Made by a program: the position numbers and the translations under genes. A stretch of 22,883 nucleotides of DNA, taken from positions 1 through 22,883 of the IMG/VR virus record IMGVR_UViG_3300044301_005691, one strand, 5' to 3'. A model generated the notes under the pieces. The model searched no databases and was not told where the DNA came from. It saw nothing but the letters and a program-made list of their open reading frames with translations. Below are positions 12,469-21,995 of this stretch, piece after piece (position 1 is the first letter of the stretch; every line of letters begins with the position of its first letter). The DNA comes from a virus.

Positions 12469-12713
12469 TGAGTGAAGAAAAAAAAGCACTTGATGATGCC
12501 CTTGTTACACTGCTCGATGCTGGGACTGCAGTTGGCATGTCTGCTATTCCAATCACTGTACCAGCGGAAATCAAATCACTAGCGCAGGCGGCGTTATCGC
12601 GGGGACTTCTTTGGCTTGTTCGCCAGATTGAGCCCAGCCAGCTCAAGGTGATTGTTGAAAATGGGGCCAAGGCCAGCATTGAAATTAAGTGGGACGAGGA
12701 CGACGAACTCTAG
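12468..12713 (+). CDS. Small acidic-tailed protein, unknown function
   Basis: The 81-residue product starts at ATG 12468, overlapping the previous stop (TAATG) with GAGGA just upstream. It is mostly helical, with no clear membrane segment: a charged N-terminus, a mildly hydrophobic middle (about 14-30), and the acidic end WDEDDEL. It is the last gene of the rightward tail/lysis block. Its stop codon TAG shares the palindrome CTAG (12710-12713) with the stop codon of the opposing ssb gene. A lysis-regulating role is possible from position only. Confidence 0.5.
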   Translation: MSEEKKALDDALVTLLDAGTAVGMSAIPITVPAEIKSLAQAALSRGLLWLVRQIEPSQLKVIVENGAKASIEIKWDEDDEL

Positions 12714-12730
12714 AACGGAATGTCCTCGTC
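12693..12730. terminator. Inverted repeat between convergent genes, candidate bidirectional terminator
   Basis: GACGAGGAC at 12693-12701 pairs perfectly with GTCCTCGTC at 12722-12730, leaving a 20-nt loop that contains both stop codons in CTAG. Each arm encodes the acidic C-terminal tail of one of the two converging proteins. There is no U-tract, so terminator activity is uncertain; the symmetry may simply reflect the two acidic tails. Confidence 0.35.
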
Positions 12731-13075
12731 ATCAAAACGGGTTCCCTCCATGCCCTTCCCGACTGGGTTGAGGATGGTCATTGTTGAGACGTTCACGGTG
12801 ACGACGTTCTTCTTCTGGCCGTTCTTGTCCTCGTAGGAGTCACCCTCCCACTTCCCAGAGATTGCCAGCATGGTTCCCTCGCTGAGTGCGCCAATGCTGT
12901 CAGCTTTCTCATTCCACGCCTTGCACCGGATCCACTCCCATTTGTCGAACGGTCCGTTTTTTCCGACGCGCATTTCCGTTGTCTTTACTGTGAAGTTCGC
13001 CACTCTCCAGGTTTCCGACTTGTTTACCTTTGGAGGTCCGTCCAGAATTCCTACTAGCGTCACGATTGGACTCAT
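12710..13075 (-). CDS. ssb: Single-stranded DNA-binding protein
   Basis: The start is ATG at 13075-13073 on the minus strand, preceded by AAGGAG; upstream in-frame codons are shadow sequence. The 121-residue product begins with a beta-strand (SPIVTLVGILDGPPKV), continues with OB-fold strands such as WRVANFTVKTTEMRVGK and WEWIRCKAWNEKA, and ends in DDEDIPF. The acidic D-D-x-D-I-P-F tail is the hallmark of bacterial and phage SSB proteins, where it recruits replication and repair partners. It would coat single-stranded DNA during phage replication and recombination. It is the last gene of a three-gene leftward unit, after a RecA-like ATPase that would act on the same DNA. Confidence 0.88.
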   Translation of the reverse strand: MSPIVTLVGILDGPPKVNKSETWRVANFTVKTTEMRVGKNGPFDKWEWIRCKAWNEKADSIGALSEGTMLAISGKWEGDSYEDKNGQKKNVVTVNVSTMTILNPVGKGMEGTRFDDEDIPF

Positions 13076-13748
13076 AATGCTCCTTGATGATTTTGTAATT
13101 TTCATTCTTCCCGCGCAGTTCAATTCGACCTGGCAATCGCTCCGACCTATCGCCAGCAACGAAGCTGCCCAATTCATCCGCATACAGAACCCGTGTGCCG
13201 TTGTTTATGTCGGCGAATAGGATTGTGTGAGCGAAGTTCTGAACCGTGTCTCTGCACCTTGACAGGGCTCTTGGCATTTTTAGCTCGAGGCGGGACGGTT
13301 CATTGTCTTTTGATATGTCCTGAGCCCTTCCAAGCATCCATACACCGAGCCCGAGTGAGCCAAGCTGCTCAAGGCGTGCCCTGAAACCCTCCTCAACCTC
13401 ACCGGCACCTCTGTGCCAATTGTCTGAGATGGCCATTCCTGGGTTTCTGCCCATCCAGTGATCTCTACAGAGCGCAGCAAGGCCGTCGATGGTGTCAATT
13501 GCAACGGTTTCAAACCCCTGCTTGTCCTCCTTGAGCGACTTTATTATTTCAACAAATTCAACCCAGGTATTTATTCGGACATTGAATGTCTCGTAATAGT
13601 CAGCACCATCCTCGGTCAGGATGAGTAGGCATTTTGGAATCTGGCTGACGGTCTTGGTTTTCCCAAATCGGTTTGACCTGCTATAAAGAAGAACGCGAGT
13701 GTGAGCCAAATCGTGGACACGCTGGACGGGTTTCTTTGGTAATTTCAT
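12909..13748 (-). CDS. RecA-like ATPase, Sak4-type recombinase candidate
   Basis: I chose ATG 13748, overlapping the previous stop as ATGA and 9 nt after a GGA-type site; ATG 13754 would add two residues. The 279-residue protein has a phosphate-loop-like SRSNRFGKTKT at residues 23-33, retaining Gly-Lys-Thr but lacking the usual first glycine. A Walker B-like strand follows (TVAIDTIDGL, 81-90), then a later strand VWMLGRAQ. This layout is that of small RecA-fold ATPases of the Sak4 group, which promote phage single-strand annealing with SSB. The last 55 or so codons overlap ssb by 167 nt in another frame. They read as a Ser/Arg-rich tail, so the conserved fold probably ends near residue 224. 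Confidence 0.68.
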   Translation of the reverse strand: MKLPKKPVQRVHDLAHTRVLLYSRSNRFGKTKTVSQIPKCLLILTEDGADYYETFNVRINTWVEFVEIIKSLKEDKQGFETVAIDTIDGLAALCRDHWMGRNPGMAISDNWHRGAGEVEEGFRARLEQLGSLGLGVWMLGRAQDISKDNEPSRLELKMPRALSRCRDTVQNFAHTILFADINNGTRVLYADELGSFVAGDRSERLPGRIELRGKNENYKIIKEHYESNRDASRNSGRTSKGKQVGNLESGELHSKDNGNARRKKRTVRQMGVDPVQGVE

Positions 13749-13936
13749 GGACATAAATCCTCAAGCGTGCATTTTAAGACTGACGCAACGCGGCGGAGAT
13801 AAAGCGCCCGAATCGTCTCCGGACGCTTTATCCAATTTCGGGCCGTCGATTCCGAAATGCCGCAGACGATGACCAGTCTGGCCCTCGTCTCTCTGTCAGC
13901 CTTTCCTTCAAAAGGAGCGAATTTTTGAATAGGCAT
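13745..13936 (-). CDS. Small helix-turn-helix regulator (Cro-like)
   Basis: The likely start is ATG 13936, giving 63 residues; in-frame codons further upstream run through the candidate promoter. Residues about 20-57 form a helix-turn-helix with the recognition part GISESTARNWIKRPETI, followed by a helix and a LEDLC end, as in short Cro/CI-type DNA-binding proteins. No dimerisation or protease domain is present. It is the first gene of the leftward unit with the ATPase and ssb and overlaps the ATPase start. A 7-bp inverted repeat centred between divergent promoter-like elements lies just before it, so autoregulation and control of the rightward genes are inferred. No strong ribosome site is seen. 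Confidence 0.62.
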   Translation of the reverse strand: MPIQKFAPFEGKADRETRARLVIVCGISESTARNWIKRPETIRALYLRRVASVLKCTLEDLCP

Positions 13937-13953
13937 GTTCTTCTGTGTAGAAA
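13925..13953 (+). promoter_or_regulatory. Candidate rightward promoter
   Basis: TTGAAT (13925-13930), a 17-nt spacer and TAGAAA (13948-13953) match sigma-70 elements at 4 of 6 positions each. The start would fall near 13960, giving a leader of about 27 nt to the zinc-protein ATG at 13987. Confidence 0.35.
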
Positions 13954-13964
13954 ATTGCACAGAA
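13941..13964. promoter_or_regulatory. Candidate operator (7-bp inverted repeat)
   Basis: TTCTGTG (13941-13947) and CACAGAA (13958-13964) are perfect inverted copies around a 10-bp centre. The site covers the -10 elements of both candidate divergent promoters and lies directly upstream of a helix-turn-helix gene, so that protein is the likely ligand. Confidence 0.45.
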
Positions 13965-13972
13965 TTTGTCAA
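13944..13972 (-). promoter_or_regulatory. Candidate leftward promoter for regulator-ATPase-ssb
   Basis: On the minus strand a perfect TTGACA (13972-13967) is followed by a 17-nt spacer and TACACA (13949-13944), a weak -10. The start point would be at about 13937, next to the ATG at 13936, implying a leaderless or nearly leaderless message. Confidence 0.4.
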
Positions 13973-13986
13973 GCACTGGGGGTCAA

Positions 13987-14193
13987 ATGGGCTGCATAAC
14001 CTGTCACACATGTGGAACGTGCGGTAATTTTACAGTCTGCTACAATTGCGACACTCCAGTCCAATCTCGGATGCCCTGGGAGCGCAAGAGGTTGAATGAC
14101 CCGGTCCAAAGGGGTCGTCTGGTGTTTGATGAGGTTGTGACATCATTGGTGGAGGGATTGGTGAATGACAGCTCGGGGAAGGAAGCCGAATGA
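13987..14193 (+). CDS. Small cysteine-rich (zinc-binding) protein
   Basis: The 68-residue product begins MGCITCHTCGTCG and has cysteines at 3, 6, 9, 12, 18 and 21, arranged as successive CxxC pairs; a zinc-ribbon or treble-clef knuckle at the N-terminus is expected. The rest is charged and helical. ATG 13987 is preferred to an in-frame TTG at 13966, which lies near the predicted transcription start. The ribosome site is weak (GGGG). It is the first gene of the rightward block leading to the deazaguanine genes and is transcribed away from the regulator gene. The function is unknown; a DNA- or protein-binding adaptor is possible. Confidence 0.5.
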   Translation: MGCITCHTCGTCGNFTVCYNCDTPVQSRMPWERKRLNDPVQRGRLVFDEVVTSLVEGLVNDSSGKEAE

Positions 14194-14473
14194 ATGGAAG
14201 GATTGGCATACCCTCTGGGTCGTCATTGCATGGTTTCCCAGGCAAGAGACACCGAAAATTCTACATAACGGGGACAGCCCTGCGGTTCTCACACATTCAT
14301 CTAAGGAGTCAGCTCAACTCAGGGCGATGCGTCTGGCCGCTGAGTGGACTAAAGAGTTTGGAAGGGGCATTCCTGGTCCAAAGACCCGGCCAACGGCTCG
14401 GTTCAGGGTCGCTCCCTTGTACGTCGGGCTCTCCACTTGGGACGATGCCGCAGAGTCACAGGTCCTCGGTTGA
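14165..14473 (+). CDS. Hypothetical protein
   Basis: The 102-residue product starts at ATG 14165, overlapping the previous gene by 29 nt, with GGAGGG upstream at about 14153. It contains a Trp-rich start (EWKDWHTLWVVIAWFPRQ), a middle stretch with ILHNGDSPAV, and a helix (SAQLRAMRLAAEWTKEFG). No family was recognised. A competing frame over 14190-14498 has a less protein-like composition and was not called. It is placed upstream of queD in the same direction, but no functional link can be argued. Confidence 0.45.
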   Translation: MTARGRKPNEWKDWHTLWVVIAWFPRQETPKILHNGDSPAVLTHSSKESAQLRAMRLAAEWTKEFGRGIPGPKTRPTARFRVAPLYVGLSTWDDAAESQVLG

Positions 14474-14539
14474 CTGCTCAATCTGGTGGCTATTATGAAT
14501 TTTCATTCTGGGGGTAATTTGGAGAAAAAAAAGACGGGG

Positions 14540-14956
14540 ATGCGCTATTGCACGCGGCGTCTGGAGTTTGATTCGGCTCACAGGGTAATGCTACACGAGA
14601 GCAAGTGTAAGAACCTTCACGGCCACAGGTACGTTGTTGAAATAACAGCCGCAGCCCCTCAGCTGGATGATCTAGGAAGGGTCGTCGATTTCAGTGTCAT
14701 CAAAAAGATTGTCGGTGGTTACATTGACAGACACTGGGACCACGGGACAATTGCCCATCAAGACGACTTTGATCTGATAGATCTATGCGCTGAAAAGAAC
14801 TGGAAATTGTTCACAATGTTCGACAACCCGACAGCAGAAAACATGGCCCGAGCCCTCTATGCAATCTCTAACAAGCTGCTGGCGGATTGCGGAGTTGAAG
14901 TGGTTCACGTCAGGCTGTACGAAACGCCCAATTGCTGGGCCGATTACTCTGAGTAG
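14540..14956 (+). CDS. queD: 6-carboxy-5,6,7,8-tetrahydropterin synthase (QueD)
   Basis: QueD turns 7,8-dihydroneopterin triphosphate into 6-carboxytetrahydropterin, the second step to 7-deazaguanines. From ATG 14540 the protein has 138 residues. Zinc ligands are visible as His14 (SAHR), His27 and His29 (LHGH), the catalytic Cys23 lies in SKCKNLHGH, the Asp67-His68 pair is in HWDHG, PTAEN is at 97-101, and Glu128 is in ETPNC. All key residues of the family are present. Upstream in-frame starts (ATG 14495, TTG 14519) would add a Lys-rich leader; 14540 was chosen because it matches the usual family N-terminus, although its ribosome site is poorly spaced. It heads a tight queD-queE-queC-folE run; queE follows directly after the stop. 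Confidence 0.92.
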   Translation: MRYCTRRLEFDSAHRVMLHESKCKNLHGHRYVVEITAAAPQLDDLGRVVDFSVIKKIVGGYIDRHWDHGTIAHQDDFDLIDLCAEKNWKLFTMFDNPTAENMARALYAISNKLLADCGVEVVHVRLYETPNCWADYSE

Positions 14957-15625
14957 GTGTTGGAAGTGAAAAGATACAAGGTCAAAGAACTGTTTCTCAC
15001 GGTTCAAGGTGAGGGTCATTGGTCCGGCACACCGGCCATCCTTCTTCGTCTATCGGGCTGCAATCTCTGGTCTGGGCTAGATGAGCAGCGGGAGCGGGAT
15101 TCAAAAAGAAACAACGCCATCTGTCCCCTATTTTGCGATACAGATTTCGTCGGCGGTGCCAAGCTAACAGCCGAGGACATTGTTGAGCGCATTGAAAGTG
15201 CCTTGGAAGGTTCACCTTTCCCGCCTCTGTGCTTTGTTACCGGTGGTGAACCGTTGCTTCAGGTCGACCAGGACCTTCACGACACTCTGTGTGAGCTGTT
15301 CGAGGTCGTGGCGTTTGAAACAAATGGAACCAGGGACCTGCCATTCGTGCCAACCTCACAGACCTGGATCACTGTCTCACCGAAGACGCCAGTGGATTCA
15401 ATGGGGTCTTCTTTCTTCAATTGCAGCGAATTGAAGGTTGTCTTCCCAGAGTACAACCCATTGCCATACGAAAAGAGGCTAAACGAAAAGGGTGCTAATC
15501 CCGCTCTCTGGGTTCAGCCATGCGATGGCACCTATGGCTCAACCGGAGCCGCCCTTCACTTTATATACGAAAACCCAAAATGGCGTCTGAGCGTTCAGAC
15601 GCACAAGATGATCGGAGTACGATGA
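14957..15625 (+). CDS. queE: 7-carboxy-7-deazaguanine synthase (QueE), radical SAM
   Basis: QueE converts 6-carboxytetrahydropterin to 7-carboxy-7-deazaguanine by a radical SAM ring contraction. The 222-residue protein shows the family start ELFLTVQGEG (11-20) and SGCNLWSG (33-40). Cluster cysteines are at 35, 56 and 60, CDTDFVGG at 60-67, and TGGEPLLQ at 95-102 for SAM binding. The cysteine spacing C-x20-C-x3-C differs from the CX3CX2C or CX14CX2C that I know for QueE. The start is GTG 14957 immediately after the queD stop; TTG 14960 and GTG 14966 are alternatives. It overlaps queC by ATGA, so coupled translation is expected. Confidence 0.9.
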   Translation: MLEVKRYKVKELFLTVQGEGHWSGTPAILLRLSGCNLWSGLDEQRERDSKRNNAICPLFCDTDFVGGAKLTAEDIVERIESALEGSPFPPLCFVTGGEPLLQVDQDLHDTLCELFEVVAFETNGTRDLPFVPTSQTWITVSPKTPVDSMGSSFFNCSELKVVFPEYNPLPYEKRLNEKGANPALWVQPCDGTYGSTGAALHFIYENPKWRLSVQTHKMIGVR

Positions 15626-16317
15626 TGGATGATAACGCTGCGGTGGTTCTCCTGAGCGGAGGGCAAGATTCGACAACCTGTCTCTTCTGGGCGAAGAAAA
15701 AGTTCAAGAAGGTCCACGCACTTTCAATCGCCTACGGACAACGGCACGCCGTTGAGATAGATGCTGCGGGTAATGTGGCGGCGATGGCTCAAGTAACGTA
15801 TGAGCACATTGACCTCAACAAGGTTCTGACAGGCACATCCCCTTTGATTTCTGACAATCCGGTCGGGCAATACGAAAACGCCGAGAGCCTACCGGGAGGA
15901 ATTGAGCCGACGTTCGTTCCCGCCCGTAACATCCTATTCCTCACCATTGCCGCAAACAGAGCGGCGTCAATTGGTGCGCTGAATCTTGTCACGGGCGTCT
16001 GTGAGGAAGATTTCGGTGGATACCCCGACTGTCGTCGCGAGTTCATTGACGCAATGGAGGAGGCTTTAAGCCTTGGCATCACCGGCAACTCGGGACATTT
16101 CAAGGTTCATACGCCCCTGATGAACCTGTCCAAAGCAGAGAGCGTCAAAATGGCGTTGAATCTGGATGGTTGTATGGAGGCGATGGCCTATTCTCACACA
16201 TGCTATAACGGACAGGTTCCTCCGTGCGGTAAGTGTCACGCATGTCTTTTGAGGGCACGAGGGTTTGAAAAGGTCGGTATTGAAGACCCGTTGCTAGTGA
16301 GGCTTGAGCATGTGTAA
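15622..16317 (+). CDS. queC: 7-cyano-7-deazaguanine synthase (QueC)
   Basis: QueC uses ATP and ammonia to turn 7-carboxy-7-deazaguanine into preQ0. From ATG 15622, with GGAG at 15614-15617, the protein has 231 residues. The PP-loop SGGQDS is at 12-17, YGQRHAVE follows, and FVPARN lies mid-protein. A four-cysteine zinc site (Cys194, 202, 205, 208 in HTCYNGQVPPCGKCHAC) lies near the C-terminus. The length is that of stand-alone QueC; no fused glutamine amidotransferase domain is present, so this protein should stop at preQ0. An upstream in-frame ATG at 15520 would extend into queE and is not used. Confidence 0.93.
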   Translation: MMDDNAAVVLLSGGQDSTTCLFWAKKKFKKVHALSIAYGQRHAVEIDAAGNVAAMAQVTYEHIDLNKVLTGTSPLISDNPVGQYENAESLPGGIEPTFVPARNILFLTIAANRAASIGALNLVTGVCEEDFGGYPDCRREFIDAMEEALSLGITGNSGHFKVHTPLMNLSKAESVKMALNLDGCMEAMAYSHTCYNGQVPPCGKCHACLLRARGFEKVGIEDPLLVRLEHV

Positions 16318-16870
16318 CAAGCACGAACAGGTTGAAGAGGCTGTTGGAATGCTCCTCAAGGCAATGGGGCGGGATCCGAAAACCGACATCGGTATAGAGG
16401 AAACGCCGGCAAGGGTTGCGAGGATGTTTACCGAGTTTGAGTCCAAGAAAGATTTCAAATTCAGCACATTCCCAGCCAATGGAACAGACCAGATGGTCGT
16501 GGTTAGCGGGATCCAGTTCTATTCATTTTGTGAGCATCACCTCCTACCCTTCCACGGCGTTGCCGCAATTGGTTATATTCCGAATCCCGAGGGGCAGATT
16601 TGTGGGTTGAGCAAGCTGGCCCGAGTCGTTGATATGTTTGCGCTCCAGCCGCAGACTCAGGAGTATCTCACAAATCAAGTCGCCGAGTTCCTCGAGGATA
16701 AGCTGGGCGCAAAGGGCGTTGGAGTGCTAATGAGGGCCGAGCATCTGTGCATGTCCATGCGCGGCGTTCGCAAGCCTGGGAGCTTCACAACGACCAGTTC
16801 ACTCAGGGGCGTTCTTATGGAAAAGCCCGAGGCAAGAGATGAGTTTCTCACCATAGCAAGGGGAATGTGA
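16310..16870 (+). CDS. folE: GTP cyclohydrolase I (FolE)
   Basis: FolE opens GTP to 7,8-dihydroneopterin triphosphate, the first step of both folate and 7-deazaguanine synthesis. From ATG 16310, overlapping the queC stop by 8 nt, the product has 186 residues. The core motif CEHH is at 74-77 with zinc ligands Cys74, His77 and Cys147. GLSKLARVVDMFA at 99-111 and EHLCMSMRGVRKPGS at 144-158 are the other family signatures. GAGG precedes the start. A phage copy next to queD, queE and queC raises precursor supply for base synthesis rather than serving folate. The gene ends with a TGATG overlap into the ParB-domain gene. Confidence 0.93.
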   Translation: MCNKHEQVEEAVGMLLKAMGRDPKTDIGIEETPARVARMFTEFESKKDFKFSTFPANGTDQMVVVSGIQFYSFCEHHLLPFHGVAAIGYIPNPEGQICGLSKLARVVDMFALQPQTQEYLTNQVAEFLEDKLGAKGVGVLMRAEHLCMSMRGVRKPGSFTTTSSLRGVLMEKPEARDEFLTIARGM

Positions 16871-17547
16871 TGTTAGCAGTTGAGGGTGATGTGGACCGAA
16901 TTTGGTCCGGTGCTGATGAGCTGGAAACAATGCTCGTTCCTGTTTCTGAGATTTCAATAGACAATGAGAACTCCAGACGTCACGACAAGCGCAGTATCAA
17001 CTCTATCGCCTCGTCATTACGGGAATTCGGTCAACAGAAGCCCATCGTTTTGAGCGGTGGAACGGTGATTGCTGGAAATGGAACAGTGACCGCCATAACC
17101 GAATCACTTGGCTGGACTCATGTTGCCGCAGTGAAGTTCAAGGCCCCGAACGGTGACCAGAAAATCAAGGCCAAGGGATACAAAATTGCCGACAACAGAA
17201 CGGCCGAGCTCTCAGAGTGGGACCTGCAACGTCTAGGTGAGGAGCTGGGTGAGTTGGTCGGTAAACTAGACCTCACTGACCTTGGATGGCTGGACTACGA
17301 GGTTGAGCCATTGCTGAGTGCCGAGTGGGAGCCGCCAGAGGTTGAGCCCCTTGATGATTTTGGGCGGGATGGTGAAGGGGATCCTTCGGACGAAACCTCG
17401 GAGGCTCATTCGCTGGCTTTGTCCGGTGTCGAATATGAGGTGCTTAAAACGGCATTTGACCGGATACGGCAAAACGACAAGAGAATCGTCACAATGGGCG
17501 ATGCAATTCTATACCTCTGTGAGTTCTACGCCGCTCAGGGAGGGTGA
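16870..17547 (+). CDS. ParB-like (Spo0J/Srx fold) domain protein
   Basis: From ATG 16870, overlapping the folE stop by one base and preceded by AAGGGGA, the product has 225 residues. Residues about 22-115 have the ParB N-terminal-domain pattern: NSRRHDKRSINSIASSLREF, GQQKPIVL, VIAGNGTVTAI, and YKIADNRTAELSEWD. The nucleotide-pocket motif is GNGT where chromosomal ParB has GERR. The second half is acidic and has no ParB helix-turn-helix I can see. Proteins of this type often accompany phage DNA methyltransferases and other base-modifying enzymes. Its place between folE and dpdA suggests it assists DNA-base exchange, for example in targeting; this is inference. A partition role is unlikely since no ParA is present. 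Confidence 0.78.
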   Translation: MLAVEGDVDRIWSGADELETMLVPVSEISIDNENSRRHDKRSINSIASSLREFGQQKPIVLSGGTVIAGNGTVTAITESLGWTHVAAVKFKAPNGDQKIKAKGYKIADNRTAELSEWDLQRLGEELGELVGKLDLTDLGWLDYEVEPLLSAEWEPPEVEPLDDFGRDGEGDPSDETSEAHSLALSGVEYEVLKTAFDRIRQNDKRIVTMGDAILYLCEFYAAQGG

Positions 17548-17551
17548 TTTT

Positions 17552-18427
17552 ATGGCTAAGAAGCGCGTAGATGCGCCAAATTTCGACGGAAGCGGTGCAA
17601 TAGGTACCACGGGGACCCCGACGGTAAGACTCGCGCATGTTGGCCCTCCTAAGGCGATTCAAAAGGCATTGAGTGATCCCGACAAGATGCCGGCGCTTCT
17701 CTGCTCGTATTACTATCTCAAGGTCTTCCTGAAAAACCGTCACCTCTATCAATTCAGGGACTGGGTGATGGATAGCGGTGCATTTTCCGCTCATAACAGC
17801 GGCAAGGTCATTGACCTGCAACAGTACATTGACACATGTCTACAGCTCATGGAAACCGACGAAAAATTGACCGAAATTTTCGCCCTGGATGTGATTGGGG
17901 ATCACGAGGCCACTCTGAAAAATACAGAGGAAATGCATAGGCAAGGGGTTCCAGCGATTCCCTGTTATCACGCAGGAGAGCCCGAAGAGTATCTAATGCA
18001 CATCGCCAAGGAGTACGACAAAATAGCACTCGGAGGCGTTGCAAGGGTGCGGGATACGAAGAGAAGAATCAAATGGGCAGAGCAATGCTTTGCTCGGGTT
18101 TGGCCGAAGAAAATACACGGGTTCGGGTTCGGGCTGAAGTCCGATGCTCTCGCCCTGCCGTGGCACAGCGTTGATGCGTCGTCATGGGAGCTGGGGCCAA
18201 CGGCATTCGGAACCTGGAGTGGGTACAGCAGCCAAGGCAAGGGCCAGTATCTACCGGTGCGAGGTAGCGAGCACAATCTAAAGATTGAGATCGACAGATA
18301 CCTGAAAATCGAGAGGCAGGCGCGAATCAAGTGGAAGAGCAGGATGCAGGACCTCGGCCCTGACAGTGGAGGTGTATCTTGCCGACTTGCGTGCATTTCA
18401 AAAAGAGTGACAAAGGCCCTCTCATAA
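17552..18427 (+). CDS. dpdA: DpdA-like DNA deazaguanine transglycosylase
   Basis: This enzyme family is related to tRNA-guanine transglycosylase and swaps guanine in DNA for a 7-deazaguanine. I chose ATG 17552, with GGAGGG about 8 nt upstream; the open frame upstream to 17318 overlaps the ParB gene and looks like shadow. The protein has 291 residues. Seen are DSGAFS (74-79), ALDVIGD (111-117), HAGEP (140-144), LGGVAR (160-165), HGFGFG (189-194) and SVDASSW (206-212), with Asp74 and Asp208 as candidate catalytic acids. The order and shape are those of the TGT-like barrel. The zinc-binding Cys-x-Cys-x2-Cys of tRNA enzymes is absent, favouring DpdA. Four preQ0 genes directly upstream give the expected substrate. 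Confidence 0.8.
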   Translation: MAKKRVDAPNFDGSGAIGTTGTPTVRLAHVGPPKAIQKALSDPDKMPALLCSYYYLKVFLKNRHLYQFRDWVMDSGAFSAHNSGKVIDLQQYIDTCLQLMETDEKLTEIFALDVIGDHEATLKNTEEMHRQGVPAIPCYHAGEPEEYLMHIAKEYDKIALGGVARVRDTKRRIKWAEQCFARVWPKKIHGFGFGLKSDALALPWHSVDASSWELGPTAFGTWSGYSSQGKGQYLPVRGSEHNLKIEIDRYLKIERQARIKWKSRMQDLGPDSGGVSCRLACISKRVTKALS

Positions 18428-19044
18428 TGGCCGCATTAAGCAGAGACAAGTATGAGCTTCTCTGGAGCCTTTATGAGCAGCGACAAGACGCTCGCCACGT
18501 TGCGAAGGAATCCGGCGTGGGCCAAAAGACGGTCGAAAAGTACATCGAGGAAGGGGACCCGTCTCGCGGTCTACTACCACTCAAAAGCAGGCTAGAAAAA
18601 CCCCAGCCCAGAAGATCCGGGACTGTTGATGCTGAGATTGAAAGAATACGTGCTGAGACGCTCAAGGCGTGCAGAATCACGAAGATGGTGGCGACGCGGC
18701 AATTGGCCAAAATTGCACAGGACCCAGATGGCGACTTAAAGGACCCGGTAAAAGCCCTCATAGAGGTTTCAAAGATAGAGCACCAGATAGACGGTGATTC
18801 GGTGGAGTCCACGGTAAGAAAAAACGCTTTCAAGGCCCTCTGTGATTTGTATGATTGCGCTGATTCTTTGTTAAGTGACGGCCTTGAATGGCAGGCCACG
18901 CAAGACACGCCAGAGACATTCACCTTCAGCCACGGCACGTTGAAATGTGTCGGCGTCAAAGACAGCCACATTGAGGAAATGCGCCAAAAAATGGAAGCCG
19001 CTGGATCTTTGTTGCAGCAATTGAAGTCCATTGAAACCGTGTGA
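18427..19044 (+). CDS. Helix-turn-helix protein, unknown function
   Basis: From ATG 18427, overlapping the dpdA stop as TAATG, the product has 205 residues. Residues about 7-40 contain a helix-turn-helix (ARHVAKESGVGQKTVEKYIEEG). A basic linker (about 42-62), a charged long helix with IERIRAETLKA, and a helical C-terminal half ending LLQQLKSIETV follow. This resembles phage DNA-binding proteins such as small terminase subunits or resolvase-like regulators, but I cannot assign a family. Its coupling to dpdA suggests it is co-expressed with the modification genes. A longer start at 18379 would overlap dpdA and has no better signal. Confidence 0.5.
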   Translation: MAALSRDKYELLWSLYEQRQDARHVAKESGVGQKTVEKYIEEGDPSRGLLPLKSRLEKPQPRRSGTVDAEIERIRAETLKACRITKMVATRQLAKIAQDPDGDLKDPVKALIEVSKIEHQIDGDSVESTVRKNAFKALCDLYDCADSLLSDGLEWQATQDTPETFTFSHGTLKCVGVKDSHIEEMRQKMEAAGSLLQQLKSIETV

Positions 19045-21464: not shown

Positions 21465-21995
21465 TTATCTCCTCCAGACGATGAATCCACCGTCTTTTGA
21501 TTCATGAAAAAAGAAGTCTTCCTCGAGTTCCCTTGCAACACCGGACCAGTCAATATGGTACGCAAGGTGCTCAGGAATCCCAATGAGACAGCCCTGCTCC
21601 TGATAGAAGTCATGTGCGAAGTCTGAGACCTTCTTGCAATAGCCATAGTAGCCATCGTTGATAGCATCCTGAATGGCAGGGAGGTCGATACCGCTCGGAC
21701 TCAAGTGGTGGCCAATCGCGATGTCTACCAGCTCAAACCCGAACTCCTCCACGGCCTCAGCGCGACACAAAATGCCCTCAATATCAGCATTCTCACCGAT
21801 ACCGAGGTCAGTGTCCTCGTAGTCATGAATAGCCACCTCGTCCGCGCCGGATGTTACCCGTTTGACCTCTTTTGCGAGCCCTTCCTGGTCTCCAACGAAG
21901 TCCATTACATCTACCCAGCCTCCAACGAGCTTTCCTTCGCTATACGCGCCCAAATTGGCGAAATACAGATTCCAGATGTTAGTACCGTTTATCAC
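21465..21995 (-). CDS. ardA: ArdA-type antirestriction protein
   Basis: The start is GTG 21995, with GGAGG upstream; the gene overlaps the preceding one by 17 nt. The 176-residue protein has the ArdA pattern: NLYFANLGAYSEGKLVGGWVD near the start, EVAIHDYEDTDLG in the middle, and AYHIDWSGVARELEEDFFF plus a short VWRR end. It is strongly acidic overall. ArdA proteins mimic bent DNA and block type I restriction enzymes at their specificity subunit. Here it probably protects incoming phage DNA before or alongside base modification. Position in the leftward operon suggests early expression. Confidence 0.82.
   Translation of the reverse strand: MINGTNIWNLYFANLGAYSEGKLVGGWVDVMDFVGDQEGLAKEVKRVTSGADEVAIHDYEDTDLGIGENADIEGILCRAEAVEEFGFELVDIAIGHHLSPSGIDLPAIQDAINDGYYGYCKKVSDFAHDFYQEQGCLIGIPEHLAYHIDWSGVARELEEDFFFHESKDGGFIVWRR

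Follow-up and report, generated by a model that had tools for sequence, protein, structure and literature searches.

The window analysed here is the whole 22,883-base stretch of IMG/VR virus record IMGVR_UViG_3300044301_005691, which derives from an uncultivated phage and is probably a fragment. Positions 14540–18427 hold six intact genes, all on the + strand, in the following order:

14540..14956, +, queD, 6-carboxytetrahydropterin synthase (PF01242, 4.8e-32; phrog_2389, 1.7e-36; TIGR03367, 2.8e-23)
14957..15625, +, queE, 7-carboxy-7-deazaguanine synthase, radical SAM type (TIGR04508, 9e-47, below its cut-off; phrog_2076, 2.5e-25; 4njg, 2.4e-31)
15622..16317, +, queC, preQ0 synthase, single domain (PF06508, 2.4e-66; TIGR00364, above its cut-off)
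16304..16870, +, folE, GTP cyclohydrolase I (PF01227, 8.7e-59; NF006826, above its cut-off)
16867..17547, +, ParB/sulfiredoxin-fold protein, candidate phage counterpart of DpdB (phrog_620, 4.7e-28; phrog_498, 6.2e-25)
17552..18427, +, dpdA, predicted DNA guanine/preQ0 transglycosylase (phrog_887, 8.8e-30; phrog_7068, 4.1e-19)

The original prediction had placed a full preQ0 pathway, a ParB-domain gene and a TGT-like gene in this stretch, and all six are indeed intact and matched by profiles; it had listed FolE first, whereas folE is the fourth gene. Coupling by overlaps, also claimed, holds for queE/queC (4 nt), queC/folE (14 or 8 nt, with folE starting at TTG 16304 or ATG 16310, respectively) and folE/parB (4 nt), but not for queD and queE, which abut, or for the ParB-like gene and dpdA, which are separated by a 4-nt gap. 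Directly after dpdA lies an HTH-like gene (18427–19044, +), whose likeness to the small-terminase-like gene (13935–14618) of a 70.7-kb relative contig, L011, was judged by eye only. Upstream of the operon (12710–13754, −), a Sak4-like recombinase frame (12909–13754) overlaps a single-strand-binding-like frame (12710–13183) by ~275 nt, possibly reflecting a frameshift or sequence error.

The six genes recur in the window's order in L011, with protein identities of 50–79%. Between the two contigs, codons differ at position 3 in 59–66% of cases and at position 2 in 7–30%, with no inner stops, a position-3 excess indicating that all six genes are under protein-level selection. A second contig (L002) carries the same gene block and encodes a DpdA identical to that of the window; the same gene set, in other orders, is found again in dozens of loci, arguing that its composition is not due to chance.

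FolE, QueD, QueE and QueC are together the full preQ0 pathway, each recognized by Pfam, PHROG or NCBIfam profiles. QueD of the window retains the FDSAH, C-x4-HGH, PTAEN and ETP motifs, and QueC has both the P-loop SGGQDS and a C-terminal Cys cluster, with no amidotransferase fusion. The closest solved chain to QueE is 4njg. The QueE cluster loop has an unusual CX20CX3C spacing in the window (14957–15625) and in L011 (5334–6038); elsewhere the loop reads CX5CX6C (L003, 2164–2781) or CX16CX3C (L044 and L045), and in 4njg CX14CX2C.

By profile, fold and residue conservation, the product of 17552–18427 is a DpdA, with a predicted activity. An HMM search places it inside the TGT/DpdA superfamily, as the original prediction had proposed, through the match to its best PHROG (phrog_887, labelled queuine tRNA-ribosyltransferase). 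An AF2 model built from 46 relatives (pLDDT 80.5) likewise adopts the TGT fold: a second look with VIA-align superimposed it on TGT 5jt6 with a Z of 16.4 and an rmsd of 3.0 (232 residues aligned), and TGTs make up all 50 entries that the structure search listed. Several other searches speak against the assignment. Foldseek alone returned no PDB match below E 0.001 (and only generic barrels above), Pfam and NCBIfam gave no match, a PDB sequence search with DpdA singly or as a profile gave nothing relevant, and an hhalign comparison of E. coli TGT with the DpdA alignment paired 20 columns around the DSG motif only, without significance. The PADLOC DpdA model did not match the window protein and matched that of phage CAjan weakly.

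Residues D74, D113, H140, H189 and D208 are invariant in 89/89 related phage DpdA proteins, those of CAjan and 9g included, and motif order suggests that D208 occupies the TGT nucleophile position. The tRNA-guanine transglycosylase Tgt carries a zinc site consisting of a CxCxxC motif and a subsequent His. The motif is present in E. coli TGT and absent from the window DpdA, as had been predicted, and from all 89 phage relatives, so that it marks the difference between DpdA and TGT rather than a peculiarity of the window phage. The PHROG label and the TGT fold would also be in keeping with an operon directed at tRNA, in which the DpdA-like enzyme and the genes for preQ0 feed queuosine-type modification of host tRNA during infection. 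We regard this as very improbable: the Tgt zinc site is uniformly missing, no Pfam or NCBIfam TGT family matches the window protein, a ParB-like DNA-binding neighbor makes little sense in such a role, and DNA is what the tested enzymes of the wider family modify, the modification being lost when dpdA is deleted (PMC6884629).

The best-placed phage records share at most 37% identity with the window DpdA, and none spans 80% of the query. Some operons contain two DpdA copies, often in tandem (L019, 8010–9605; L034, 2987–4319; L035, 7255–8666; L062, 7045–8744; L085, 1980–3700; L023, 8004–11549; L094, 7869–10052; L120, 670–2543), with the invariant Asp and His residues kept in both copies in the six loci checked; such pairs possibly represent two specificities or a heterodimer.

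7-Deazaguanine in phage DNA is a known means of escape from restriction enzymes. Very probably, the whole set serves to make preQ0 and to swap it for some of the guanines in phage DNA. By analogy with tested relatives, FolE, QueD, QueE and QueC would make preQ0, DpdA would exchange guanine in DNA for it, and the product would be dPreQ0 at part of the guanines (~1/3 of G), with restriction resistance as the outcome. The combination of these five proteins without an amidotransferase yields dPreQ0 in phages CAjan and Rosebush; in measured dPreQ0 phages the base accounts for ~28–32% of G, not all of it (~28% in Rosebush, which resists several restriction enzymes), and deletion of dpdA from CAjan leads to loss of both modification and resistance, such that restriction enzymes cut again (PMC6884629). 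The original prediction of guanine replacement is well supported in respect of 7-deazaguanine DNA (the protein family, the fold, the catalytic residues and the precedents all speak for it), but "replace" is too strong. Since the nearest tested layout, that of the Rosebush type, has dPreQ0 at ~28% of G, our best prediction is partial dPreQ0, and we would not predict full guanine replacement.

The choice of dPreQ0 over dG+ or dPreQ1 follows from the lack of a recognized amidotransferase or QueF: no amidotransferase, QueF or Gat-QueC was recognized in the 22.9-kb window, and profile searches with known families found neither QueF nor a GATase_6/glutamine amidotransferase domain in the 70.7 kb of L011. 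As the window is a fragment, an additional modifying enzyme could sit outside it and direct the pathway to another 7-deazaguanine, be it dADG, dPreQ1, dG+ or some other derivative; phages sharing this core may bring enzymes beyond it, and the pathway is known to have several ends (PMC6884629). Given the unfused QueC and the result for L011, we consider this outcome unlikely, and partial dPreQ0 is the reading carried forward here. The window also encodes an ArdA antirestriction protein (21465–21995, −; PF07275, 1e-21), which adds a second means of countering restriction, here based on a protein, and fits the same strategy.

The remaining gene of the operon encodes a protein whose AF2 model (pLDDT 88) matches ParB N-domains (Z 11–12) and sulfiredoxin. 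All 43 aligned ParB-like partner proteins match both phrog_620 (ParB-like) and phrog_498 (DNA methyltransferase, ParB-like part), and 20 of the 43 match Pfam ParB_N. In place of the canonical ParB motif GERR, the window protein reads GNGT and its relatives mostly G[NH]x[RT]. The N-terminal ParB domain of the phage DNA methyltransferases in phrog_498 belongs to the same family; in contrast to those proteins, the window domain stands alone beside a transglycosylase and lacks a methyltransferase domain. In one locus (L027, 10–1190), two consecutive ParB-like genes lie upstream of dpdA.

A pairing of TGT-like DpdA with a ParB-superfamily protein is also found in bacterial Dpd islands, which encode DpdA, DpdB and DpdC together with restriction genes (PMC12839542, PMC11888242). 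Bacterial DpdB is described as a ParB-like ATPase that drives insertion and is dispensable in some clusters (PMC12839542), and the ParB gene of phage CRB2 has already been suggested by its authors to be a DpdB homologue (PMC6392294). Unlike the Dpd islands, the window has no recognized DpdC or restriction genes, and none of the 43 phage ParB-like proteins matches DndB in Pfam, whereas DpdB is of the DndB/DGQHR-type sequence family. In our proposal, the ParB-like protein corresponds in phages to bacterial DpdB and loads DpdA on DNA; as is thought for DpdB, and by a weaker line of reasoning than that for the enzymes, it might bind DNA beside DpdA and load or position it there.

Among characterized phages, the closest layout is that of the Rosebush/CRB2-type mycobacteriophages (the second group of Hutinet et al, 2019, PMC6884629), ordered ParB–dpdA–queC–queD–queE–folE. 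Common to these and the window are a ParB-like gene directly before dpdA, the same four synthesis genes and, so far as recognized in the window, the lack of an amidotransferase; the Rosebushvirus phages Arbiter and TA17A show the same gene set, again with the ParB-like gene directly 5′ of dpdA. The two arrangements differ in that the que/fol genes precede ParB in the window but follow dpdA in the mycobacteriophages, in that the DpdA proteins are distant (identity only ~1/3), and in that the operon of L011 is not at the terminase end of the genome. The Queuovirinae (9g, CAjan and Iggy, with the preQ0/G+ operon) make preQ0 with the same four enzymes as the window, and the invariant residues of its DpdA recur in theirs; they have, however, no ParB-like gene, dpdA being followed instead by a DNA polymerase sliding clamp, and 9g additionally has Gat-QueC.

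This difference in partner extends across 121 DpdA loci drawn from IMG/VR, GTDB contigs and GenBank phages. A ParB-like gene within 1.5 kb of dpdA, with no clamp gene there, occurs in 84 loci, and a polymerase sliding-clamp gene beside dpdA, with no ParB, in 25 (a ratio that is no census, as loci were fetched by similarity to the window's DpdA family). The clamp-type loci include those of CAjan, 9g, Iggy, Me-ZS1, RHEph06, Ssp-JY38 and MS1, and the clamp gene lies downstream of dpdA in all but one. No locus has both partners; 12 have neither, six of them cut by contig ends. Matches to ParB concentrate next to dpdA (87 within 1.5 kb, two at 1.5–3 kb and none at 3–8 kb), as scored with a profile that was itself trained on dpdA neighbors; PHROG, Pfam and fold comparisons, made independently of it, point the same way. 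ParB–dpdA–que operons are also present on long contigs assigned to an Acidobacteria MAG (L089), Staphylococcus intermedius (L102) and Kutzneria viridogrisea (L094), where they are probably prophages.

On the DpdA tree, in which the window protein falls inside a well-supported ParB clade, the ParB and clamp states need only ~2 changes. This gives no support to an origin of their mutual exclusivity in many independent events; the pattern looks ancient and stably kept, not the product of repeated evolution, and we treat the split as a lead, not proof, and claim no statistical independence for it. So few switches also favor a reading of the ParB-like gene as a bystander, a partition or regulatory gene that merely shares the operon. 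The ParB-like protein is, moreover, the fastest changing of the six operon proteins (mean identity 0.27, versus 0.45 for DpdA), and its distances track those of DpdA no better than do those of other operon genes. Against this, the ParB–dpdA pair persists while que/fol genes are reshuffled between loci, the ParB-like gene lying mostly upstream and in some cases downstream of dpdA, in loci from many bacterial phyla, and bacterial DpdA is also accompanied by the ParB-like DpdB (PMC12839542). We consider the bystander explanation rather doubtful; gene neighborhood suggests instead that the ParB-like gene, usually ignored in such sets, is a standing partner of DpdA.

Extending this partnership to the clamp lineages, we put forward as a tentative model, somewhat short of an even chance, that phage DpdA is linked to either of two DNA partners that form a ring or clamp: a ParB/Srx-fold protein in most lineages found, including that of the window, or a polymerase sliding clamp in Queuovirinae and kin. 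The partner would tether DpdA to DNA and set the site and density of guanine exchange; the ParB-like protein would be the DpdB counterpart, and the same module as that fused to phage DNA methyltransferases, and the loading or positioning role may fall to the sliding clamp in the lineages that have one. The six-gene operon itself is of a known kind, and the ParB/clamp comparison may be the new part; in the literature searched, we found no paper on this alternative and no account of how phage DpdA reaches sites in double-stranded DNA.

These loci would extend 7-deazaguanine modification of DNA to numerous uncultivated phages, for whose DpdA there is no close relative in culture. This bears on predicting both their restriction resistance and how sensitive they are to defences that depend on modification, GrwAB being one example (PMC12137116).
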